A stretch of DNA of 64,000 bases, from positions 124,001 to 188,000 of the forward strand of contig NZ_RDSM01000001.1 of the NCBI RefSeq assembly GCF_004115155.1. The letters run 5' to 3'. Positions 3,492 to 50,146 of this stretch are shown here, piece by piece; within the stretch, counting starts at the first letter, position 1, and each line of letters begins with the position of its first letter. Origin of the DNA: Granulicella sibirica (lineage in GTDB: Bacteria > Acidobacteriota > Terriglobia > Terriglobales > Acidobacteriaceae). Below the pieces are notes generated by a model that was given only the letters and a program-made list of their open reading frames with translations, had not been told where the DNA came from and made no database searches. Made by a program: the position numbers and the translations under genes.

Positions 3492-4589
3492 ATGCCAGAA
3501 AAACCTCCGTCCAAACGCACGCGAAAACCAAAAGAGGGCGATCCCGACCGGATGGATATTCGCACCATCGCGCACGCGGCGAAGGTGTCGATCGCCACCG
3601 TCTCGCGCACCATCAATCGTGTGCCCACCGTCAATCCCAGGATCGCCAAGCGCGTCTGGGAGGTCATCGACGAGCTCAACTACTTTCCCAACACCCAGGC
3701 CCGCGCCCTCGTCTCCGGACGAAGCTGGATCCTTGGTCTCATCGTCTCCGAGATCACCAATCCCTTCTTCCCCGAGCTCATCCAGGGCTTTGAAGAAGTC
3801 GCCATCGAACACGGCTACGAGATCCTCGTCAGTTCTACCAACTACGACCCAAAGCGCATGTCGCAGTGCATCCGCCGCATGCTCGAGCGCAAGGTCGACG
3901 GTGTCGCCATCATGACCTTCGGTATCGAGGAGCCGCTCCTCGATCAGCTCGCCCAGCGCAAGGTTCCCATGGTCTTCGTCGACATCGGCCCCGATCAACC
4001 CGGCGTCAGCATCCTCAAGGTCGATTACCACCACGGCATTCGTCAGGGCGTGCAGCATCTCGCCGCCCTCGGCCATCGCAGGATAGCTTTTATTAGTGGC
4101 CCCATGCGCCTGCACTCGTCGCTCTCCCGCCTCAACGCTTTCAATGCGTCTCTGGAAGAGTGCGGCATCAATCCGAATCCTGCATGGATCCTTGAAGGCG
4201 ACCACACGCTCGAAGGGGGCACCGCCGCCATGCAAACCCTCCTCAACGGTGGCGATCTCCCCACTGCGGTGATGTGCTCGAACGACATGACCGCCATCGG
4301 CGTCCTGCACAAGATGTATCGCGCCGGCCTCCGCGTGCCCGACGATCTCTCGGTCATCGGCTTCGACGACATCCACATCGCCGAGGTCACCATCCCACCG
4401 CTCACCTCGATCCAGATGTCCCGCTTCGAGATTGCGCGAGCAGCCGTCACCGCCCTCCGCGCGCAGCTCGAAGACGCCAAGGACCTCCCGCATCAACGCG
4501 AGTTCGACATCCGCACCGACCTGGTCGTCCGCGAATCCACAAGCTTCCCGCGCGGGACCATGAAGAACCTCCGCAAGGCAAAGAAGTAA
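3492..4589 (+). CDS. LacI/GalR family transcriptional regulator
   Basis: 365-residue sugar-responsive repressor or activator. The LacI helix-turn-helix is at residues about 21-70 (MDIRTIAHAAKVSIATVSRT, with the hinge helix ending NYFPNTQARAL). A periplasmic-binding-protein-like effector domain follows (SRSWILGLIVSEITNPFF style, ...IPPLTSIQMSRFEIARAA near the end). The N-terminus has a basic 20-residue extension; a second ATG at 3552 starts exactly at the HTH and could be the real start, as no clear ribosome site precedes either. Two CRE-like sites lie directly upstream. The following glycosyltransferase starts 8 bases after the stop, suggesting co-transcription. The effector sugar is unknown. 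Confidence 0.95.
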   Translation: MPEKPPSKRTRKPKEGDPDRMDIRTIAHAAKVSIATVSRTINRVPTVNPRIAKRVWEVIDELNYFPNTQARALVSGRSWILGLIVSEITNPFFPELIQGFEEVAIEHGYEILVSSTNYDPKRMSQCIRRMLERKVDGVAIMTFGIEEPLLDQLAQRKVPMVFVDIGPDQPGVSILKVDYHHGIRQGVQHLAALGHRRIAFISGPMRLHSSLSRLNAFNASLEECGINPNPAWILEGDHTLEGGTAAMQTLLNGGDLPTAVMCSNDMTAIGVLHKMYRAGLRVPDDLSVIGFDDIHIAEVTIPPLTSIQMSRFEIARAAVTALRAQLEDAKDLPHQREFDIRTDLVVRESTSFPRGTMKNLRKAKK

Positions 4590-4597
4590 GCCGGCGC

Positions 4598-5761
4598 ATG
4601 CGCATCGTTCAAACAGTCTTCGGTGTCTTCCATCACTTCGAACTAGCCCGCCAGCTTCATCAACGAGGCCACCTCGAGCGCATCTACTCGACCTGGCCGT
4701 GGGCCCGCCTGAAACGCGAAGGCCTCCCACGAGAGCTAGTCAGCACCTATCCCTGGGTCCACACGCCCGAGATGCTCCTCCAGCGTTACGGCGTCAAGAA
4801 CCCTTGGCTCCTCGACCAGATCTCCTACGCCAACGCCCTCTCCTTCGACGCCTACACCTCGCGCCGGCTTGCGCGCAAACCCGCGCCCGACGCCCTCATC
4901 GCCATCTCCGGCTCCTCCCTGAAAACTGGCGCTGAACTCCAATCGCGCGGCGCCCGCCTCATCTGCGATCGCGGCTCCTCACATCAGCGCTATCAGGAGC
5001 AGATCGTCTCCGACGAGTACCGCCGCTGGGGTGTCGACCGCCCAGTCACCGATATCCGCGACATCCTGCGCGAAGAGAAGATCTACGCCATCGCCGACGC
5101 CATCACCGTCCCGTCCACCTTCGCCGCGCGATCGTTCATCGAAAGCGGCGTCGATCCGGCAAAGCTCCACGTCATCCCGTACGGCGTCCGCCTCGAACAG
5201 TTCATCAAATCCGGCGAGCCCCCCAGAGACCGCTTCGAAGTCCTCTTCGCCGGCTCCGTCGGCCTGCGCAAAGGCATTCCCTATCTCCTCGAAGCCTTTG
5301 CACAACTTAGCCGCGGAGCAAAGCGCCTGCGCATCGCGGGCTCCCTTCATCCCGACCTGGAGAGCGTCCTTCCCCGTCTTCCCCAGCAGCATGTGGAGTT
5401 CCTAGGGCCTGTCGATCAAGCCACCCTCGCAACGCTCATGAGCACAAGCCACGTCCTCGCCCTGCCCAGCATCGAGGATGGCTTCGGCCTCGTCATCGGC
5501 CAGGCACTTGCCTGCGGATGCCCCGTCATCGTCTCCGAACATACCGGCGGGCCCGACATGATCACCGAAGGCGTCGAGGGCTTCATCATCCCGATTCGCG
5601 ACGCATCAACACTCCGCGATCGCATGCAGCAGATCTGCGACGAGTCACACCTGCAATCCCGCATGCGAGCGGCAGGGCTCGCCCGCATGCAACATCTCGG
5701 CGGATGGGACGACTACGGCGGTCGCTGGGAGAGCCTCCTCCACACCCTCACCGGCCGCTAG
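4598..5761 (+). CDS. Glycosyltransferase family 4 (GT-B) protein
   Basis: 387-residue transferase of the GT-B fold, expected to add a sugar from a nucleotide donor to a cell-surface glycan at the cytoplasmic membrane face. The C-terminal half carries the glycosyl transferases group 1 signature: VLFAGSVGLRKGIPYLLEAF for donor binding, then LPSIEDGFGLVIGQALACGC with the E-x7-E motif, and GGPDMITEGVEGF. The start ATG at 4598 gives the typical N-terminus MRIVQTVFGVFHHFELARQL. It lies 8 bases after the LacI gene. Its stop shares the palindrome CTAG with the convergent flippase gene. Donor and acceptor are unknown. Confidence 0.92.
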   Translation: MRIVQTVFGVFHHFELARQLHQRGHLERIYSTWPWARLKREGLPRELVSTYPWVHTPEMLLQRYGVKNPWLLDQISYANALSFDAYTSRRLARKPAPDALIAISGSSLKTGAELQSRGARLICDRGSSHQRYQEQIVSDEYRRWGVDRPVTDIRDILREEKIYAIADAITVPSTFAARSFIESGVDPAKLHVIPYGVRLEQFIKSGEPPRDRFEVLFAGSVGLRKGIPYLLEAFAQLSRGAKRLRIAGSLHPDLESVLPRLPQQHVEFLGPVDQATLATLMSTSHVLALPSIEDGFGLVIGQALACGCPVIVSEHTGGPDMITEGVEGFIIPIRDASTLRDRMQQICDESHLQSRMRAAGLARMQHLGGWDDYGGRWESLLHTLTGR

Positions 5762-41243: not shown

Positions 41244-42509
41244 CTAAGGCTTCACGGGGTGGACGGTGTTCCAAAGAAGGATCGCCGTAAGACCGGTAAC
41301 GATGGCAGAGGTAGTCCAGGCGATGACGTTGAACCAGCGAGAGTTGGTGTATTCGCCCATAAGATCGTGCTTGTTGATGAGCTTCAGCATGAAGATCAGG
41401 ACGACCGGGAGCAAGATGCCGTTGAGAACCTGCGAGAGGATCGTGATCCGGACCAGGGGGAAGTTCGGAATAAGAACGACTGCGGCGCCGAAGGCGATCA
41501 GCAGTGAATAGAACCAGTAGAAGAACGGGGCCTCGTCGAAGCTCTTGTCGAGGCCGCTCTCGAAACCCATTCCCTCGCATACGGTGTACGCGGTCGACAG
41601 GGGCAAGATGGAGGCGGCGAAGAGGGACGCGTTGAAGAGGCCGGCTGCGAAGAGAATGAAGGCGTACTTCCCCGCCAGGGGCATCATGGCGTTGGCCGCG
41701 TCGGAGGGGACGTTGATGTCACGCATCCCATGAGTGAAGAGGGTCGCGGCGCACGCGACAACGATGAACCAGGCAACAACGTCGGTAAAGATTGAGCCGA
41801 CGATGACGTCGAGACGGGACGCCTTGTACTGACGTACGCCGACTCCTTTCTCGACAATCGAGGACTGAAGATAGAACTGCATCCATGGGGTGATCGTCGT
41901 GCCGATAACGCCGACAGTCATGTAGACGTAGTCGCGGTCCTTCCAGACGGCGCGCGGCGGAAGCTTCACGGTTTCGAGGAGGGCGAGGTGCCAGTTGGGG
42001 CCGCTGAGTACGCCAGTGACGATGTACGCGATGTAGAAAACGCTGGCGGCGAGGAATACTTTTTCGACGTTCTTGTAGTTGCCCTTGACGACCAGCGCCC
42101 AGACGAAGAAGGCACAAACGGGAACACTGATGTATTTGCTGATGTGGAAGAGTTGCAGCGATCCTGCGATACCGGAGAACTCCGCGACAACGTTGCCGAA
42201 GTTCACGATGACGAGGAGGATCAGCATAATGAAAGTCATGCGGAGCCCAAACTCTTCGCGGATAAGGTCGGAGAGGCCTTTGCCGGTGACGACGCCCATG
42301 CGAGCGCACATCTCCTGCACCACGATAAGGGCGAGCGTGATGGGGATCATCGTCCAGAGGAGCGTGTACCCGTAGTGCGCGCCAGCCTGCGAGTAGGTGA
42401 GGATGCCGCCGGCGTCGTTATCCACGTTGGCGGTAATGAAGCCAGGACCAAGGACGGCGAGGAAGAGGAAGATGCTGGTGCGCCAGCGGCGCCAGAGCGA
42501 AGCGGCCAT
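41244..42509 (-). CDS. Nramp-related divalent metal transporter with altered metal-site motifs
   Basis: 421-residue inner-membrane protein with about 11 hydrophobic segments and the overall Nramp pattern (GPGFITA...QAGAHYGYTLLW in TM1; YLQSS after TM6). In canonical Nramp (MntH) TM1 carries DPGN and TM6 carries MPH, whose Asp, Asn and Met ligate Mn2+/Fe2+. Here they read DAGG (32-35) and TPW (207-209): Asp is kept, Asn is Gly, Met is Thr. The conserved Met is known to discriminate against Mg2+/Ca2+, so its loss suggests an Nramp-related Mg2+ transporter. The start is one base after the upstream reductase stop, as the last gene of a five-gene operon that begins with a soluble MgtE-like protein. 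Confidence 0.88.
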   Translation of the reverse strand: MAASLWRRWRTSIFLFLAVLGPGFITANVDNDAGGILTYSQAGAHYGYTLLWTMIPITLALIVVQEMCARMGVVTGKGLSDLIREEFGLRMTFIMLILLVIVNFGNVVAEFSGIAGSLQLFHISKYISVPVCAFFVWALVVKGNYKNVEKVFLAASVFYIAYIVTGVLSGPNWHLALLETVKLPPRAVWKDRDYVYMTVGVIGTTITPWMQFYLQSSIVEKGVGVRQYKASRLDVIVGSIFTDVVAWFIVVACAATLFTHGMRDINVPSDAANAMMPLAGKYAFILFAAGLFNASLFAASILPLSTAYTVCEGMGFESGLDKSFDEAPFFYWFYSLLIAFGAAVVLIPNFPLVRITILSQVLNGILLPVVLIFMLKLINKHDLMGEYTNSRWFNVIAWTTSAIVTGLTAILLWNTVHPVKP

Positions 42510-42510
42510 C

Positions 42511-43494
42511 TCAGCTCACCGCCTTGAGGGTGAGCCCGCTCCGCTCCCGCTGGACAAGTTCGTGCAGGCGAAGTGCGGGAACTTCCAAGGAAGGGTCTCC
42601 GGCAACTTCGACGTTGGTGCGGATGTGCCCAGGCTTCTTGGACGAGAAAAGGATGATGCTCTCAGGGTTCGCGACGAGGGAGGCCTTGAGCATCAGCTTC
42701 GCGAGGGACTCTGCATTGGCCAGATCGTGGCCTGTCGCTTCGGACCAGCGTTCTTGGCGGCTCGGATCGGCCAATAAGGACGTATAGAGGGTACGGAAGT
42801 CTTCGGTCAGCGCCCGATGGTGGATACGGAATGACTTTCCGGGAACAGTTGCCGGGTCCAGAACAGACCATTCGTACTGCGTGACCGGGCAATAGGCGGG
42901 TTTCTCGGACAATAAGGCGGGGATCTTTGCCCGGCCACTTCCAACTCCAAACGTACCGATCTTTCCCTGGTTCACCGAAGACCTCAAAAAAAACAACAAC
43001 TCATCATCTTGTAGATCCCCTGCGCTGACCTCGTGAAGGAGCCAGAGGTCGATATGGTCGGTCTTCAACGCGGCGAGGCTGCGCTCGAGAGCCGTGCGAG
43101 CTGCATTAGCGTTGAAAGCGGGCTGCTCTTCGCGACGTACGACATTCATGGCTAGGCCCGCCATGCCCTGCTTCAAGCCCGGCACCCTGCGGATGATCGG
43201 TCCGGCGATGCCGCGGGCGAGGCTTATCAGAGACTGGTTCTTTGACCCAGGAATGCCGTACTTGCTGGTCACCGTAAGTTTGCCGGCGTGGCGGCGGCAA
43301 ACCTCGCCGAGGCAGGCTTCGGCCTGTCCGTAACCGTAGGAAGGGGCGACATCGAAATGGGTAATACCTGCCTCGACAGCGGCTTCGAGCATCGTGAGAG
43401 AGTCCCGGCGGTTAAGGCCCCCCATGATGCTTGAACAGCCGAAGCCCAGGCGCGTAGTGGTTCGGCCGGTCGTCGCTAGGGCTATCTCTTGCAT
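42511..43494 (-). CDS. Aldo/keto reductase family protein
   Basis: 327-residue TIM-barrel oxidoreductase expected to use NADPH to reduce aldehydes, ketones or sugars. The catalytic tetrad is readable: Asp in THFDVAPSYGYG, Tyr in the same segment, Lys in VTSKYGIPG and His in LWLLHEVSAGD. The C-terminal NADP-binding part is less canonical (NPESIILFSSKKPGHIRTNV). An AGGAG ribosome site precedes the ATG. It lies 32 bases downstream of the GMC oxidoreductase and one base upstream of the Nramp-like gene. With its neighbours it may act on a surface sugar or polyol; that is inference. Confidence 0.9.
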   Translation of the reverse strand: MQEIALATTGRTTTRLGFGCSSIMGGLNRRDSLTMLEAAVEAGITHFDVAPSYGYGQAEACLGEVCRRHAGKLTVTSKYGIPGSKNQSLISLARGIAGPIIRRVPGLKQGMAGLAMNVVRREEQPAFNANAARTALERSLAALKTDHIDLWLLHEVSAGDLQDDELLFFLRSSVNQGKIGTFGVGSGRAKIPALLSEKPAYCPVTQYEWSVLDPATVPGKSFRIHHRALTEDFRTLYTSLLADPSRQERWSEATGHDLANAESLAKLMLKASLVANPESIILFSSKKPGHIRTNVEVAGDPSLEVPALRLHELVQRERSGLTLKAVS

Positions 43495-43526
43495 CCGGCT
43501 CTCCTAATCAGTGTGCTCGTTTGAGG

Positions 43527-45083
43527 TTAGCCTAGATCGCCTGCAAGATGGTCCGCCAAACGAACGGCGAGAGCGAGGACGGTGTGAGTGGGATTTGAAA
43601 AGCTCGAAGTTGGAAAGACGGCTCCCGAGCAGACGTAGATATTCGCAGTGCCGTGGAGCCTTAGGTTGGGATCGACTACGCCGTCCTCGGGATCGACCGC
43701 CATGCGCATGCCGCCCATGTGGTGGTTGCTGTCATCGCATTTTGCTCGAAACTCCGGCTTGCCCGCGACAAGATCGGGGTCCGGAATGACCCTCGCAATC
43801 CCGGCCAGAGAGCATTGTGCAATGAGCACATACTCGCGGATTGCTGCCAATTCCTTGTCTGAAATCTGCCAATCGAGCCTCGTGCGGTAGAGGCCGAGGG
43901 CGTCTCTTTCGTCCGAAAGCGTGATGCTGCTTGTAGAGTCAGGCTGCTGCTCGCAGTGGACGCGCAATGTGATAGCTGCGTCCGACGGGTTGTAGGCGCG
44001 GTTTTGAATGGCATATCGCAGCGTTTGTCGCACGAGAAGCGGGAGATTCTTCACGACGAAGACAACATCCGCGAAGGCCACCTCGCGCACGCGGCCTCGC
44101 AGTATCTTCTTGGCGGTCTCCTTGAGCCTGCCGAGCGCTTCGTCGGCGTTCGAGATGAAGGACATGGTCGCGGCAACGTTCAGCGTGCGCCTCTCTTGCT
44201 GGATCGAGGAAGAAAGCCGAAGCTTCGGGTGGTACTTGAATCCTTCGCGGAAAATGTTGTCGAAGATTCGATGAAATCCCTCGGAATCAATTGGCTCTAT
44301 CTCTGCAGCGTTTACGTCGATGTGGTCTTGAAAATGTCTCCCCAGGAGACCTGAGCGGTTCCAGGGAAATCCTGCCGCGCTTGGTTGCAGAAAAAAACGT
44401 GAACTTTCAATGGCACCGAGACAGAACACGAAGCGAGAGGCTCGGAAGGTGGCTTCGACACCTGTGAGCGTTCGGCACCTAACCCCGATCATGCGATCCG
44501 CGTGGAAGATCATCTCGACAGCATTCGCATGGAGCCACACGACGAGGCTGGCGTTTTCCTCGAGTACGGCACGGTGAAGACGGGCGAAGGACGGTTCAGG
44601 GCACCATCGGGAAAAGTAGCTGTGGAGTCCGTCGAACGAAGGTGGCTCGACACCAATCTTGCGCCAGACGGATTCGTCTTTGCGAATGACGCCGCCAAGG
44701 CCCTCAAGCTCAAGCGCTCGCTCGTAGTACGGGCGCAGTTCGTCTTTGGAAAACGGCCATCCGCTCTCCGCGATCCAGGGCCGTTGGATGAAGTCGAGGT
44801 ACTCGAACTCGAGGATCTGGCCTCCCCAACGTGTGGTCGTTCCGCCCTTTGCACGGAAGCGTCCGGTATGAACACCGCGATGGATGTTGCCGACGACCTC
44901 GCTGCGGTAGGTTTCCTGGGACCGCTCCTCGACATCCGCGCCTCCGCCTTCGAGAAGTACCACTCGCTTCCCTTGCCTGATCAACTCGACCGCGATTACG
45001 ATTCCCGCCGCCCCTGCGCCCACGATGCAGACATCCGCGACCTCGCTCGGATCGGGTTGAGAGACTTCGAGGTCGCGGATCAA
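43527..45083 (-). CDS. GMC-type FAD-dependent oxidoreductase
   Basis: 518 residues from a TTG start at 45083 that overlaps the stop of the upstream gene (TTGA) and has AGAGG seven bases upstream; a longer frame upstream only runs antisense into the next gene. The FAD-binding Rossmann motif is VADVCIVGAGAAGIVIAVEL, ending in the E of LLEGGG. The GMC signature region GGTTTRWGGQ, the C-terminal GMC domain with DSNHHMGGMRMAVDPEDGVV (active-site His) and the final NIYVCSGAVFPTSSFSNPTH also show it to be complete. It resembles glucose/choline-type dehydrogenases that oxidise an alcohol or sugar hydroxyl. No signal peptide. Its pairing with the aldo/keto reductase suggests oxidation-reduction of a sugar. 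Confidence 0.92.
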   Translation of the reverse strand: MIRDLEVSQPDPSEVADVCIVGAGAAGIVIAVELIRQGKRVVLLEGGGADVEERSQETYRSEVVGNIHRGVHTGRFRAKGGTTTRWGGQILEFEYLDFIQRPWIAESGWPFSKDELRPYYERALELEGLGGVIRKDESVWRKIGVEPPSFDGLHSYFSRWCPEPSFARLHRAVLEENASLVVWLHANAVEMIFHADRMIGVRCRTLTGVEATFRASRFVFCLGAIESSRFFLQPSAAGFPWNRSGLLGRHFQDHIDVNAAEIEPIDSEGFHRIFDNIFREGFKYHPKLRLSSSIQQERRTLNVAATMSFISNADEALGRLKETAKKILRGRVREVAFADVVFVVKNLPLLVRQTLRYAIQNRAYNPSDAAITLRVHCEQQPDSTSSITLSDERDALGLYRTRLDWQISDKELAAIREYVLIAQCSLAGIARVIPDPDLVAGKPEFRAKCDDSNHHMGGMRMAVDPEDGVVDPNLRLHGTANIYVCSGAVFPTSSFSNPTHTVLALAVRLADHLAGDLG

Positions 45084-46150
45084 GCTTTGCCTCTGCGAAC
45101 AGACTCCAGGATCGAGGCGACACGATCCACGATCAGGCCGACCTGGCGATCGTTGTGGTACCCGTCGCGTTCGGCACGAGCGAGTCCGGCCGCCGCGATC
45201 CTCGCCCTTGCTGCCTCGTCGGGCAGATATCTGCGGATCTTTTCGACGCACTCTTCTATCGAGGAGAAGAAGACTGCCTCGACGTCTTCTTCGAACCTCT
45301 GCTGATGGCCATCGGAGCGCTCGGCAAGAAGAAATCCTCCGCATCCCGCGATCTCGAAGCTCTTGTGGACGAACTCGTCCTGGTTCGAGTGGGTAATGAA
45401 ACTGAGGTTGATCTGCGAGCGCCAGATTCCCTCGCGATATTCGTCGCGAAAGAGCTCACCGTTCCCGCGATAGATCGCCGTTGTCGCTTCCAGGCCGAGT
45501 GCAGGCTTCCAAACGAGACCGCCCGACACAGTGACGTGGAAGCCGAACTCCTTCCAAAGACGCGTGAGAAACTGGGCGCGATCGTCGTACGGTGTGCCGA
45601 TGAAGGAGACACCACGATCGCGGTCGGCGTCGGACCAACCGGGCGGTGGCGGGAAGTGCATCGTGGGCTCATACGCGGTCTGGATCTTCATGACGTCGCG
45701 GGCGCCCCGCGCGTGATATTCGGCGATGTTGCGGTCGCGCTGGACAACGTGCAGGTCGAAGAAGGGGATATTCTTCATATACAGGCGCCAGCCTGGATCG
45801 CGGCGGGTGCCAAAGGGATTGTCGATCATGTAATTAACGCTCACGATCCCCAGCGCTCGCCAGCGCTTGAGGGTCGAGGCCTTGAGCCAGAGAAGCTTGT
45901 CGGTCCAGACCACGTCGGGCTTCTCCTGCATGGTCAGGCGCAGAAGGTCGCGGTTGAGGCGCTCGACCTGAGGTCCGGCTGCGAGGCGGTGCATCACCTT
46001 CGCGAGGAAGGGGTTGCGAGGCGCGTACTCGAGCGAGTCGAAGCCGATGACAGTGTGGCCGAGGCGTTCAAGCGCCCATAGACGGTACAGAGCCGAGTCG
46101 TTTGGAGAGATGCTTCCGGCGTAGAGGATCTTCATGTGCCGAACGCTCAT
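45080..46150 (-). CDS. CgeB-like glycosyltransferase
   Basis: 356-residue GT-B-like protein of the CgeB/spore-maturation glycosyltransferase type. N-terminal Rossmann domain (MKILYAGSISPNDSALYRLW) and C-terminal domain with SQINLSFITHSNQDEFVHKS, FEIAGCGGFLLAERSDGHQQ and FEEDVEAVFFSSIEECVEKI, the pattern typical of these transferases. The ATG at 46150 lies 3 bases after the MgtE-like stop; an ATG at 46135 (MKILYAG) may be the true start. Its stop overlaps the TTG start of the GMC oxidoreductase. It probably transfers a sugar during surface-glycan formation; donor unknown. Confidence 0.85.
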   Translation of the reverse strand: MSVRHMKILYAGSISPNDSALYRLWALERLGHTVIGFDSLEYAPRNPFLAKVMHRLAAGPQVERLNRDLLRLTMQEKPDVVWTDKLLWLKASTLKRWRALGIVSVNYMIDNPFGTRRDPGWRLYMKNIPFFDLHVVQRDRNIAEYHARGARDVMKIQTAYEPTMHFPPPPGWSDADRDRGVSFIGTPYDDRAQFLTRLWKEFGFHVTVSGGLVWKPALGLEATTAIYRGNGELFRDEYREGIWRSQINLSFITHSNQDEFVHKSFEIAGCGGFLLAERSDGHQQRFEEDVEAVFFSSIEECVEKIRRYLPDEAARARIAAAGLARAERDGYHNDRQVGLIVDRVASILESVRRGKA

Positions 46151-46153
46151 CCG

Positions 46154-47428
46154 CTAATGCTTGTGCCTGAGGTTGGCGATGACCTGCTCAGCGTGAATGA
46201 CCCCCGCAAGACGCTTGTCGTCGTCGACCACAGGCAGCGAGCGGAGGTTGTACTTGTCGAACAGCTCGGCGACTTTCTTCCCATTCGCGTCGAGGCGGCA
46301 GCTCACAATGTGCCCCTGCGGGAGAGCCGATAGCGCCGCCCCGGGTTCCGCAAAGAGGAGGCGGACGACTGGGATTAAACCGCGAATCTTCTGATCGTCG
46401 TCCAGCAGGATGATATCGGTGATCACTTCAATATCGCCTTCGAAGTCGCGCAGAGCGTTCACGGCATCCGACACGGTCGCAACCTCGGGCAGTGAAACGT
46501 AGTCGGTCGTCATGCGGCCGGCTGCGGAGTCTCCCGAGAACTCGAGAAGCTCTTCGACCTCATGCCGCTCCTCGGGATCCATCTCTTCGAGGATCGCCTC
46601 GGAGCGTTCGTCGGACAGCTCGGACAGGAAATCGGCGGCAGCACCGGGGTCCATCTCTTCGACGATCCCGGCGACCTGCTCGGAGTCGAGATCTTCGATG
46701 AGAGCCTTCTGCATCTTGGGGTCGACTTCTTCAAGCGCCTCGGCAGCGACCTCTTCGTCGAGACTGGTAAAGAGCGCGTGGCGTTCTGCCGGCCCAAGTT
46801 CCTCCAGGATGTCCGCGATGTCGGATGGGTGCATCTTCGAGAGTCGGTTCTGTTCGATCTTCAACTTCACCCGGCGCGACGGGTCGCGGTCGATCAGGTC
46901 GACGAAGTCCCACGGGATAACACTCGCTGGAATGCGGCAGGATAAGTTGTCGATAGTGCCGTGCGGCAGACCTTTGAGCAGACGCCGTATTGCCCCACGA
47001 ACTCCCACTTCAACCTCGGCGATGCGAAGCGAAAGTCTGTCTGTCCCGTCAAGACATGCCTCCCAGATGAGGTCGACATCGTTTACTCGCACGACTTTGT
47101 GCCCGTTAACATCAATGATTTGCTGGTCGAGCAGGTCACGTTCCAGCAGAAGATATGCCTCAGCATCTGCCATCTCCTGCATCTCGGCAGATGCCCGGAG
47201 TTGAAGACCGTCACCGCCCTGAACGAGATCAGACACGCGTATCAGCGACGGTTGCCCATTCTTCTTTCCGGTCGCGAGCCGCAGGATAAAACCGAAGACG
47301 TGCGCCGCGTCGTCCGAGGGGCTGACGGCGAACTCACGCACCGAGCCGAATGCGCGCCCATCAGGGCCATTGACCTTGGCGCCCATCAGTGCCGATACGC
47401 TCGTTCTCTCGTTCGCGTGCTTCGTCAT
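46154..47428 (-). CDS. Soluble PRC-barrel / MgtE_N / CBS-pair protein (MgtE-like regulator without a membrane domain)
   Basis: 424 residues, no membrane segment. Residues about 8-70 (and weakly 95-165) look like PRC-barrel folds (SALMGAKVNGPDGRAFGSVR; QIIDVNGHKVVRVNDVDL). Residues 195-300 match the MgtE N-terminal superhelical domain (LSKMHPSDIADILEELGPAE, MQKALIEDLDSEQVAGIVEE, FLSELSDERSEAILEEMDPE). Residues 305-420 match a CBS pair (AGRMTTDYVSLPEVATVSDA, YNLRSLPVVDDDKRLAGVIH). In MgtE channels this part senses cytosolic Mg2+ and closes the pore; here the pore is missing. It heads the operon ending in the Nramp-related permease, so it may gate that protein in trans. Confidence 0.9.
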   Translation of the reverse strand: MTKHANERTSVSALMGAKVNGPDGRAFGSVREFAVSPSDDAAHVFGFILRLATGKKNGQPSLIRVSDLVQGGDGLQLRASAEMQEMADAEAYLLLERDLLDQQIIDVNGHKVVRVNDVDLIWEACLDGTDRLSLRIAEVEVGVRGAIRRLLKGLPHGTIDNLSCRIPASVIPWDFVDLIDRDPSRRVKLKIEQNRLSKMHPSDIADILEELGPAERHALFTSLDEEVAAEALEEVDPKMQKALIEDLDSEQVAGIVEEMDPGAAADFLSELSDERSEAILEEMDPEERHEVEELLEFSGDSAAGRMTTDYVSLPEVATVSDAVNALRDFEGDIEVITDIILLDDDQKIRGLIPVVRLLFAEPGAALSALPQGHIVSCRLDANGKKVAELFDKYNLRSLPVVDDDKRLAGVIHAEQVIANLRHKH

Positions 47429-47447: not shown

Positions 47448-49499
47448 TTACCAAACCTTGCAGACTTTGGACTTCACCATCGGCTGTCCGACCTTGCACC
47501 CAAATGCGGGGGCGAACTGCGGCAGGTTCGTTACGATGCCGTTCACACGGGCAAACCCGGGAGAGTGCGGATCAGTTGCGGCCTGGAGGCGCTCGGCCGC
47601 TTCGCGTGTGTTCTCACAGGCCCATTGGGCGTAGCCGATGAAGAATCGCTGATCCGGGGTAAAGCCATCGATGGGCTTGAGGTTCTTGCCTTCGACCTGG
47701 TGCTTCCAGGCGATATAAGCGATGAGTGTTCCGCCGAGATCGGCTACGTCCTCACCGCTTGTCAGCTTGCTGTTGATGTGGATGTCATCGACGACGACAT
47801 AGGTAGCGAACTGGTCGCGGAGGCAGTTGATGCGGTCTTCGAAGCCTTGCGCGTCCTCTTTGGTCCACCAGTCCTTGAGGTCGCCCTCGGCGTTAAATTG
47901 GCGGCCTTCGTCGTCGAAGGCGTGGGTGAGTTCGTGGCCGATGGTGCCACCGGTGTCGCCGTAATTCGGGGCGTCGTCGGCCTTCGGATCGTAGAGAGGT
48001 GGCTGAAGGACGCCGGACGGGAAGTTGATGTCGTTCATCTGGGGGTTGAAGTAGGCGTTCACGGTTGGCGGCGTCATGCCCCACTCGTTTCGGTCGACGG
48101 GCTTGCCCACCTTGGCCCAGTCGCGCGAGTCCTCGAACTGCTGGGCGCGTTCTGTGTCGCCGAAGAAGTCGCCTGGGGTGATCGTGAGTTTGGTGTAGTC
48201 GCGCCAGGTGTCTGGGTAGCCGATCTTATTGCGGATGGCGTGAAGCTTGCGGAGGGCTTCCTTCTTTGTCGCCGGGCTCATCCAGTCCAGATGCTCGATC
48301 TCGTCCTGCATGACGGCTTCAATCTGCTGGGTCATGACGAGCGTCTTCTGCTTCGTGTCCGCGGCGAAGGTGCGGCGCACAAACTCCTGCCCGAGGGCCT
48401 CGCCAAGGGAGCTGTCGACAAAGCGAACACAGCGCTTCCAGCGTGGCGGCTGTTGCTGCGCGCCACGAAGGTAGCCGCGGTAGAAGCCGAAGTTCTCGGT
48501 CTCGAATGAGCTGGCGAGTGCAGGTGCCGCGCCAGTCAGAAGGTGAAACCTCAAGTAAGACTTCAAGGCTTCGAGCGCTTCGTTCTTCAGTTCAGCGTCG
48601 AGCGCCTTCTGAAACTCCGGCTCCGTGACATTGACTGTCGCGATTCCAGCGAGACCGCGCTTGGCGAAGAAAGCTGGCCAGTCAACCGACGGGTTGATCT
48701 TCGTAAGCTCGGCCACCGTCATCTTGTGGAACTGCTTGTAGGGGTCGCGCTTGTCGACAAGCGTGAGCGAAGCGGTGGCGAGGGCGGTCTCGATGCGCAT
48801 GACGTCGGCGGCATCACTCGCTGCCTTTGCATCGGTCTCGCCGGCGAGGGCGAAGAGCTTTGTCACATAAGCCACATACTTCGCGCGCGTCTCGACACTC
48901 TTCGGGTCGGCCTTGAGGTAGTAGTCGCGGTCGGGAAGGCCGAGGCCTCCAGAGGCGACGGCTGTAATAACGTCATTGGCGTTCGCGGGGTCCTGGGTTG
49001 ATCCCGAGTTAAAGAAGAAGGAGCCGACGGCGTCATGCGAGAGGGTGCTGATCGACGCAGCTACTGCAGCCCGATCTCTCAGGGCATCGATCATCGCCAG
49101 TTCGGGACGGAGCGGGTCGAGGCCGCGCTTATCGATCGCTGACGTATCCATGCAAGCGGCAAAAGCGTCGCCGATCTTCTGCTGAATGGGCGTGCGGTTC
49201 GTTGCCTTCGCTGCGTCCTCTAGGATTCCCCAAAGGAACTGCGCATTCTCGTCAGTGAGCTTGGCGTAGACGCTCCAGTTCGCCTGGTCTGCCGGGATGG
49301 GATTGTTCTTCATCCATCCGCCGCAGGAGTATTTGTAGAAGTCGGTGCACGGATCAACGGTGCGATCCATGTCGTTGATGTCGAGTACCGGCGAGAACGG
49401 CATCTGCTGCAGCGGCCTCGGAGCAGGAGCGGTCTGCGCTCTTGCGAAAGGCACTCCGGAAAAAAGAAAAACCGCCGCGACTGCTGCCAAACCCTTCAT
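47448..49499 (-). CDS. M13 family (neprilysin/PepO-like) zinc metallopeptidase, exported
   Basis: 683 residues from the ATG at 49499, which has GAGG upstream and starts a signal peptide (MKGLAAVAAVFLFSGVPFAR AQ). The M13 N-terminal domain begins with DRTVDPCTDFYKYSCGGWMK. The catalytic domain has the zinc motif GGTIGHELTHAFDDEG (HExxH), the third ligand Glu in SGEDVADLGG (ENxAD variant), the substrate motif VNAYFNPQMNDINFP, and ends with CKVW like the family's CxxW. It degrades oligopeptides in the periplasm or outside. It lies 19 bases upstream of the MgtE-like gene's start region (47428), same strand. Confidence 0.95.
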   Translation of the reverse strand: MKGLAAVAAVFLFSGVPFARAQTAPAPRPLQQMPFSPVLDINDMDRTVDPCTDFYKYSCGGWMKNNPIPADQANWSVYAKLTDENAQFLWGILEDAAKATNRTPIQQKIGDAFAACMDTSAIDKRGLDPLRPELAMIDALRDRAAVAASISTLSHDAVGSFFFNSGSTQDPANANDVITAVASGGLGLPDRDYYLKADPKSVETRAKYVAYVTKLFALAGETDAKAASDAADVMRIETALATASLTLVDKRDPYKQFHKMTVAELTKINPSVDWPAFFAKRGLAGIATVNVTEPEFQKALDAELKNEALEALKSYLRFHLLTGAAPALASSFETENFGFYRGYLRGAQQQPPRWKRCVRFVDSSLGEALGQEFVRRTFAADTKQKTLVMTQQIEAVMQDEIEHLDWMSPATKKEALRKLHAIRNKIGYPDTWRDYTKLTITPGDFFGDTERAQQFEDSRDWAKVGKPVDRNEWGMTPPTVNAYFNPQMNDINFPSGVLQPPLYDPKADDAPNYGDTGGTIGHELTHAFDDEGRQFNAEGDLKDWWTKEDAQGFEDRINCLRDQFATYVVVDDIHINSKLTSGEDVADLGGTLIAYIAWKHQVEGKNLKPIDGFTPDQRFFIGYAQWACENTREAAERLQAATDPHSPGFARVNGIVTNLPQFAPAFGCKVGQPMVKSKVCKVW

Positions 49500-49705
49500 C
49501 TGCAAAGACCTCGTGTTGGCATCGTAAATCACTCGCTCCGGCCCCGCCGGAATGAGGCGCGTGATCTGCCCGCTTCGCTTCTCGAAGGTATCCGCCTTGA
49601 CATCTTCCCGCGTGGCAAGCACACTGCCAACATCGGGCATCGGCGGCGTATGCCGGTGCGGAGTATCGAATCCGTACGCAGGACTGCTTCCCCAAAAGGA
49701 CCGAG

Positions 49706-50146
49706 TTGGCCGACCATACAACAAGCCGCGTCAGTTACACGCTGGATTCGTCACTCGCCAGCGTCAACAAAGTAGAGCAGACGGCCGAGGAATTTGCCGA
49801 ACGCGCAGGCTTCGACGAAGATACCGTGCCGAATATTGCGATGGCCGTTCGTGAGGCCGCTGTCAACGCCGTGCTGCATGGAAACGCGTACGATCCAGAG
49901 AAGCACATTACCGCTTCGTTCGAATCGACCCCGGATTCGCTTATTATCCGCATCAGCGATCAGGGCTCGGGGCTGAATCCAGACACGCTTCCTGACCCTC
50001 TGGCCCCCGAAAACATCCTCCGTGGCTCCGGCCGTGGCATCTTTCTCATTCGCGCTTTCATGGATGAGGTAAACTTTCGCCAGCTACACCCAGGTACTGA
50101 ACTGACTTTGATCAAGCACCGCACCCCCGCGCAGTCGGGAACCTAA
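49706..50146 (+). CDS. Anti-sigma factor/serine kinase, RsbW-type ATPase
   Basis: 146-residue GHKL ATPase of the RsbW/SpoIIAB family. A TTG start at 49706 with AAAGGA six bases upstream is the only good start. N box [18 protein letters not shown]1 [11 protein letters not shown] and G2 [14 protein letters not shown] are visible. Such proteins bind a sigma factor or other partner and phosphorylate the STAS antagonist encoded 14 bases downstream. No sigma factor or PP2C phosphatase is in the window, so the target is unknown. Divergent from the M13 peptidase gene. Confidence 0.92.

Follow-up and report, generated by a model that had tools for sequence, protein, structure and literature searches.

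Organization of the locus

Five genes of the minus strand lie at 47428-41244 in a stretch of 64,000 nucleotides of the Granulicella sibirica genome (contig NZ_RDSM01000001.1, positions 124,001 to 188,000; below, the window, numbered from its first letter). They code for a soluble MgtE-like protein, a glycosyltransferase, an oxidoreductase, an aldo/keto reductase and an Nramp permease. The subject of this work is the first and the last of them. The pore-less MgtE-like protein (below, the partner) and the permease, which falls into the NRMT clade, very probably form a dedicated partnership, and the partner may act in it as a feedback brake. The features of the two genes are as follows; residues of the MgtE channel are given in TtMgtE numbering.

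46154..47428, minus strand: soluble MgtE-like partner, 424 amino acids, with a tandem PRC barrel, MgtE_N and a CBS pair, without a transmembrane pore
46859..47410, minus strand: tandem PRC-barrel region, residues 7-190 of the partner
46535..46834, minus strand: MgtE_N domain, residues 199-298 of the partner, with E230 (E59 of TtMgtE), G262 (D91, lost) and D266 (D95)
46169..46531, minus strand: CBS pair, approximately residues 300-420 of the partner, with N394 (D226), Q415 (D247) and A418 (D250), all three acids being lost
41244..42509, minus strand: NRMT-clade Nramp permease, 421 amino acids
42405..42416, minus strand: helix-1 metal-site motif of the permease, D32-A-G-G35 (DxxG)
41889..41900, minus strand: helix-6 metal-site motif of the permease, T204-T-I-T207 (TxxT), followed by PW in place of PH

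The permease

The permease had been called Nramp-related in an initial annotation made from the sequence, and the Pfam Nramp score of 325.8 bits bears this out; the protein can moreover be placed in the NRMT clade. Its best solved relative is EleNRMT of Eggerthella lenta (PDB 7qia, PMC8806188) with 369 bits and 47% identity, the best MntH structure scoring 100 bits. The NRMT signature consists of DxxG in helix 1 and TxxA/T in helix 6 (PMC8806188), and the window permease carries DAGG and TTIT at these places; in both proteins helix 6 lacks the histidine. They differ at the last position of the helix-6 motif, which is A in EleNRMT and T in the window permease. This position is T or S in all six rows from the genus and A in 27 of the 30 other NRMT rows. 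The close homologues named among the matches listed belong to Granulicella and Edaphobacter. The G. sibirica genome, 6.14 Mb in size and 99.9% complete, contains three Nramp genes, one MgtE_N gene and one CorA gene. By their motifs the three Nramp proteins are a canonical MntH (DPGN/MPH), one of another type and the window NRMT. A role of the latter as the sole Mg2+ importer of the organism was rejected on account of CorA.

The partner protein

Pfam recognizes MgtE_N (100.5 bits) and CBS (49.6 bits) in the partner, and the Pfam and NCBIfam scans detect no membrane pore domain. For the PRC part, even a threshold of E <= 1 brings no Pfam match in the window partner, and at this threshold 41 of 46 family members have one. 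When residues 1-190 are modelled separately, the resulting fold matches tandem PRC barrels. CdpB proteins are archaeal proteins of another function. Their tandem PRC-barrel structure (PDB 8qzo) is like the fold of the N-terminal 190 residues of the partner, with an identity of just 11-14%. The make-up of PRC barrel, MgtE_N and CBS without a pore, as initially annotated, is thus borne out by Pfam for the latter two domains and by the fold match for the first. Close homologues named among the matches listed are from Edaphobacter, Granulicella and Tunturiibacter.

A protein of this kind has been described before. Most genes of the NrmT group adjoin a gene homologous to the N-terminal cytoplasmic domain of MgtE (Shin et al. 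2014, PMC4072509), for which cytoplasmic feedback regulation or a chaperone role was proposed in the same work. The partner fits this NrmT-associated MgtE-like fragment by its homology to the MgtE cytosolic domain, the absence of a pore and the coupling to an NrmT gene. Among the matches listed there is no paper later than 2014 on the role of the fragment beside NrmT (subscription journals were outside the coverage), and PMC9606685 contains no occurrence of MgtE, operon or CBS.

The partner had also been credited with the Mg2+-sensing half of MgtE. The MgtE_N domain and the CBS pair are indeed present, but the sensing part of the claim is weakened by the residues found there. Of six comparable metal-site acids (the acidic TtMgtE residues named in the available text of PMC5882242 and covered by the alignment) the window partner retains E59 and D95, D91, D226, D247 and D250 being changed. 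One of the six ATP contacts named in PMC5529423 is kept (Val207). The protein ends 6 residues past the D250 position without a predicted helix there, and the acids of the plug helix (Mg2/Mg3 sites of MgtE) fall past its C-terminus.

These residues bear on the question of which metal is handled. It is possible, though we hold it for doubtful, that the pair of Acidobacteriaceae handles Mn2+ and not Mg2+; such a system would overlap with feedback inhibition and differ in the metal alone. The NrmT of Acidobacterium capsulatum fully rescued a Mn2+ transport defect and rescued a Mg2+ defect just at low millimolar Mg2+ (PMC4072509), which favours Mn2+, as do the T or S ending the helix-6 motif in the genus, the lost site residues of the partner and the absence from the window of an M-box (Mg2+ riboswitch) matching Rfam at the gathering score. 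The canonical MntH of the same genome speaks against it, and so does EleNRMT, which carries both Mg2+ and Mn2+ (PMC8806188).

Co-occurrence of partner and NRMT

In the class to which G. sibirica belongs, strong and weak matches were divided by eye at a wide gap in the scores (partner, at least 184 versus at most 81.5 bits; NRMT, at least 391 versus at most 223 bits). Strong matches of the partner and of NRMT are found in the same 42 of 61 genomes, and no genome has just one of them (Fisher p 3e-16, uncorrected for relatedness; the NRMT of G044, cut at a contig edge, was counted as present). No more than 311 bases separate the adjacent genes in 30 of these genomes; in 6 the distance is 685-5579 bases, and the other 6 have them unlinked, 2 with the genes far apart on one contig and 4 being drafts with the genes on different contigs. 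MgtE-like genes, defined as the weaker matches of the partner search, occur in 4 of the 42 partner genomes versus 15 of the 19 others (a 19-bit match in G020 was not counted). In the genus NRMT is present in 40 of 41 genomes and the partner in 38. The two genomes having NRMT only are 63% and 83% complete, and the one with neither gene is 90% complete. The genes are linked in 32 of the 38 genomes with both and not linked in 6, with G103 and G104 carrying them on different contigs.

Outside the class, the NRMT patterns alone served to pick 80 NRMT loci of many phyla, the best 80 of 583 confirmed ones when ranked by likeness to EleNRMT. The partner gene lies upstream on the same strand in 68 of them, is convergent in 1 and is not nearby in 11. 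A search of the whole genomes of those 11 located the partner elsewhere in 10, which brings the number of loci with a partner to 79 of 80. For L093, counted among these ten, both genes are at contig edges and may be neighbours. The remaining locus, for which the whole-genome search found no partner, is L083, where NRMT lies at a contig edge of a metagenome-assembled genome. A twelfth genome searched (L119) was already among the upstream loci. Each of the 11 genomes in which the whole-genome search found the partner has one strong NRMT match. The co-occurrence of the two families in other genomes, on which the initial annotation depended, is therefore found in the class as well as outside it.

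Eleven loci were tested for an M-box riboswitch ahead of the pair or of NRMT, and 9 have one, eight within 350 bases and that of L113 at ~1.15 kb; L127 and L074 have none. A separate M-box precedes the partner in 3 of 11 loci tested with an unlinked or distant partner (L143, L144 and L147), all of them from Bacillota with an M-box on NRMT too, namely Acididesulfobacillus acetoxydans, Peptococcaceae CEB3 and Clostridium pascui (L116/L143, L133/L144, L134/L147). In A. acetoxydans the two genes are ~0.93 Mb apart on one chromosome. The partner of a fourth unlinked Bacillota genome (L148) has no M-box, and the M-box was rejected as a general rule. Fluoride riboswitches were also seen near NRMT or the partner in two Bacillota genomes (L134:2528-3364, L142:227-288).

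The co-occurrence counts make chance neighbourhood hard to hold. A published co-expression experiment in which the fragment gave no benefit (PMC4072509) would suit genes that are neighbours by mere descent in a metal-transport island, without a functional link. Such an origin is highly improbable, given that the co-occurrence outlasts unlinking in several lineages and that the genes have separate Mg2+ riboswitches in three genomes.

Membrane-anchored partners

Partners of the wider set (69 sequences, four of them partial) were inspected for membrane helices after the CBS pair. There is none in 45, one in 14 and four or five in 10; in the class alignment all 46 partners are without a helix at this place. 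The hydropathy scan also flags segments inside folded domains (11 of 69 and 7 of 46), which were taken as false positives; none is flagged in the window partner. All 14 one-helix partners (L059-L072) are from Eggerthellaceae. They include that of E. sinensis (L059), a close relative of the source of EleNRMT, where the membrane-anchored partner gene is directly upstream of NRMT; the passages of PMC8806188 related to MgtE do not mention a partner for EleNRMT. The four- and five-helix partners (L073-L081, L103) belong to other Coriobacteriia by title and, for L075, by tree position.

The multi-helix domain of 8 of the 10 aligns nearly end to end with the MgtE membrane domain (hhalign 83%, single-comparison E 8.8e-6), the controls giving 0.2% and E 0.38 for the reversed sequence and 1.2% and E 0.04 for NRMT. 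Likewise, the whole-protein profile of the multi-helix partners runs into the membrane part of TtMgtE. The Pfam model of the MgtE membrane domain gives a weak match in just 1 of the 5 multi-helix partners scanned (E 0.026, below the cut-off). The GGNxGxQ motif has a role in the MgtE pore. A simple pattern detects it in 14 of the 16 MgtE-like genes fetched; it is missing from the membrane part of the multi-helix partners (L079 has a GGN elsewhere in this part, not GGNxGxQ).

In a midpoint-rooted tree of 132 rows, one branch separates all 115 partner rows from the 17 MgtE rows; its support of 92/50 is weak. The Coriobacteriia partners form one group (100/99) with the one-helix form nested inside the multi-helix form (97/90). 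The simplest reading, which is not a proof, is that an ancestral MgtE lost its pore; that it was a loss rather than a gain is what we infer.

Paired metal-site positions

TtMgtE D91 and D247 are the Mg4 residues that were mutated in PMC5882242. In the class alignment (n = 46) this pair reads DD in 31 partners, GQ in 13, GD in 1 and ND in 1; in the wider set (n = 69) it is DD in 60, SN in 6 and HE, GD and AD in 1 each. A single change is thus found in just 2 of 46 and 2 of 69 sequences. The window partner is in the GQ group together with 5 other rows of the genus, G009 and six database proteins. The joint changes speak for contact between both positions in the soluble partners too. The double changes fall in three lineages, and their counts are therefore inflated by kinship. 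The alignment of partners (A1) omits the split frames L049 and L050, and that of NRMTs (A2) omits L034, L049, L050, L053, L054 and L055.

Metal-site residues erode in the genus and in the loci of Syntrophaceae/Smithellaceae. This erosion would also suit a partner that acts as a positive factor for NRMT, in assembly, in stability or as a chaperone handing over the metal, with the PRC barrels as a docking module. Judging by the fold and the Pfam matches, the PRC region comes in addition to the MgtE parts, and the near-obligate co-occurrence suits any dedicated partner. A chaperone role is named as an alternative in PMC4072509. The same work reports that the NrmT proteins of C. acetobutylicum and A. 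capsulatum are functional in B. subtilis without the fragment, which counts against such a factor, and the conserved DD at positions 91 and 247 in most partners would be unneeded for a purely structural role. We consider a positive factor rather unlikely.

Neighbouring genes

The three genes between the pair are:

45080..46150, minus strand: glycosyltransferase gene (Pfam PF13524), which we take to be CgeB-like
43527..45083, minus strand: GMC-type FAD oxidoreductase gene, probable TTG start at 45083, with a longer ATG frame from 45344
42511..43494, minus strand: aldo/keto reductase gene

The tight spacing of the five genes noted in the initial annotation is confirmed on the window coordinates, with gaps of 3 bases (46151-46153), 32 bases (43495-43526) and 1 base (42510), and an overlap of 4 bases between the glycosyltransferase and the oxidoreductase provided that the latter starts at the TTG. 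It had been taken to tie the outer two genes together. As evidence that they cooperate it is weak because the middle genes vary across the 38 genomes of the genus with both partner and NRMT, and the co-occurrence is the better evidence. The oxidoreductase lies between partner and NRMT in just 8 of these 38 (four weaker rows of 35-36% identity being omitted), and the glycosyltransferase directly follows the partner in 31; the survey of neighbours covered these two genes and not the aldo/keto reductase. The middle genes seem to have joined the cluster within the genus, since in the other class genomes examined the pair is adjacent or unlinked without them. Less certain is that the operon begins with the partner gene. 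A peptidase M13 gene of the same strand (47448-49724) ends 19 bases upstream, and the transcript may therefore start before the partner gene. At locus L012 a peptidase M13 gene likewise precedes the partner gene, by 22 bases.

In 5 of the 6 genomes of the genus with NRMT unlinked or on another contig, the partner still has the glycosyltransferase next to it. Within the genus the partner might thus have taken on the regulation of the adjacent glycosyltransferase or of the oxidoreductases, the link to NRMT being a leftover, and the loss of the Mg4 pair in all six rows of the genus examined would agree with this. We regard such a recruitment as improbable: NRMT is present in all 38 genomes of the genus with the partner, and in 7 of the 38 the glycosyltransferase either lies apart from the partner or was not found.

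Plasmid-borne relatives were examined in 12 regions of a plasmid collection, taken from the 22 rows listed; the queries, which were the partner and a Tsukamurella relative, had matched 70 and 80 records. Nine of the 12 regions have an Nramp gene next to the partner; for six of these nine the signature was inspected, and three show DxxA instead of DxxG. In the other 3 of the 12 regions, all from Actinomycetes, a DUF1003 membrane protein follows the partner relative (Tsukamurella, Nonomuraea and Nocardia; L170:3495-5305, L176:3498-5178, L180:about 3501-5368). In two of these three no NRMT is found in the same record, to which the search was confined, other replicons being outside it. DUF1003 is a possible second membrane partner of the partner relatives. 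Plasmid-borne pairs with the Nramp gene first are found in L171:1778-4490, L172, L174, L175 and L178. L171 is a conjugative IncHI1B plasmid, on which a heavy-metal P-type ATPase and an ArsR-type regulator are beside the pair.

Proposed role of the partner

The partner may be a feedback brake that acts on NRMT by direct contact, to which we assign a probability of about 50%; direct binding, inhibition and the metal sensed are inferred here. The permease would be an NRMT-type importer of divalent cations, most likely Mg2+ and possibly Mn2+. The partner would be its dedicated cytosolic protein, corresponding to the sensing half of MgtE minus the pore with the tandem PRC barrel in front. Most likely it would sit at the cytoplasmic face of the permease and slow the import when cytosolic divalent metal is high, NRMT supplying the path that was formerly supplied by MgtE's own pore. 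The metal response of the partner may be altered in the genus, because further residues of the metal site are missing there and the gene has acquired new neighbours.

Several observations weigh against this proposal. Four of the six site acids are changed in the window partner, and the window contains no M-box, a feature that is not required of all NrmT-associated fragments. The model of the whole partner has a predicted template modelling score (pTM) of 0.46, so that its domain arrangement is uncertain. No natural fusion of partner and permease was seen among 120 + 120 listed homologues (8000 scored each), the open frames of the class genomes or the 80 loci, where long NRMT frames overlap the upstream partner gene and are not fusions. 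Further points are the weak support of the branch between partners and MgtE, the Pfam result on the multi-helix partners, the DUF1003 neighbours and the glycosyltransferase that stays with the partner. Finally, there are the published experiments: the Mg2+ rescue by the A. capsulatum NrmT at low millimolar Mg2+ only, the activity of the C. acetobutylicum NrmT without its fragment, and the co-expressed A. capsulatum fragment, which gave no gain in Mg2+ rescue (PMC4072509). The last result leaves the brake open, since no better rescue at low Mg2+ is to be expected from an inhibitor. Serious rivals to the brake are a partner that serves as assembly factor or chaperone, and a pair that handles Mn2+.

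More tentatively, the sensing half of MgtE can be regarded as a movable regulatory module. A PRC-bearing MgtE would have lost its pore, with the partners of Coriobacteriia still anchored by the decayed membrane domain or by one helix and other lineages keeping the soluble part alone. It would then have become a near-obligate trans-acting metal gate of NRMT, coupled in some Actinomycetes to DUF1003. If true, this would be a two-protein importer with sensor and pore from unrelated families. If the brake itself is real, a sensor has moved between transporter families.

Comparison with known systems

The initial annotation presented the sensor in trans to another permease as a new regulatory arrangement. 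This was rejected, as both the adjacency and the feedback idea precede it in PMC4072509. The sensor-in-trans idea is already known as a hypothesis, and the window holds a derived member of a known pairing. The pairs of that work (A. capsulatum Acp2976/Acp2977 and the C. acetobutylicum Ca_c0685 operon) consist of the same two families, adjacent and with the same feedback hypothesis, and A. capsulatum is an acidobacterium, as are the named relatives of the window genes. The window pair differs from them in the three genes between, the missing M-box and the lost metal-site residues. The available text of PMC4072509 is silent on the PRC barrel, on co-occurrence as near-obligate, on a riboswitch carried by an unlinked partner gene and on partners anchored in the membrane. 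The present analysis adds the co-occurrence counts, the riboswitch on each unlinked gene, the membrane-anchored partners and the joint change at positions 91 and 247.

With the cytosolic region of the MgtE channel (PDB 2yvy, 2zy9, 8gpv) the partner shares MgtE_N and the CBS pair. In contrast to the channel, it is devoid of the pore domain and the plug-helix acids, has 4 of 6 comparable metal-site acids and 5 of 6 ATP contacts changed, and carries the added PRC barrels.

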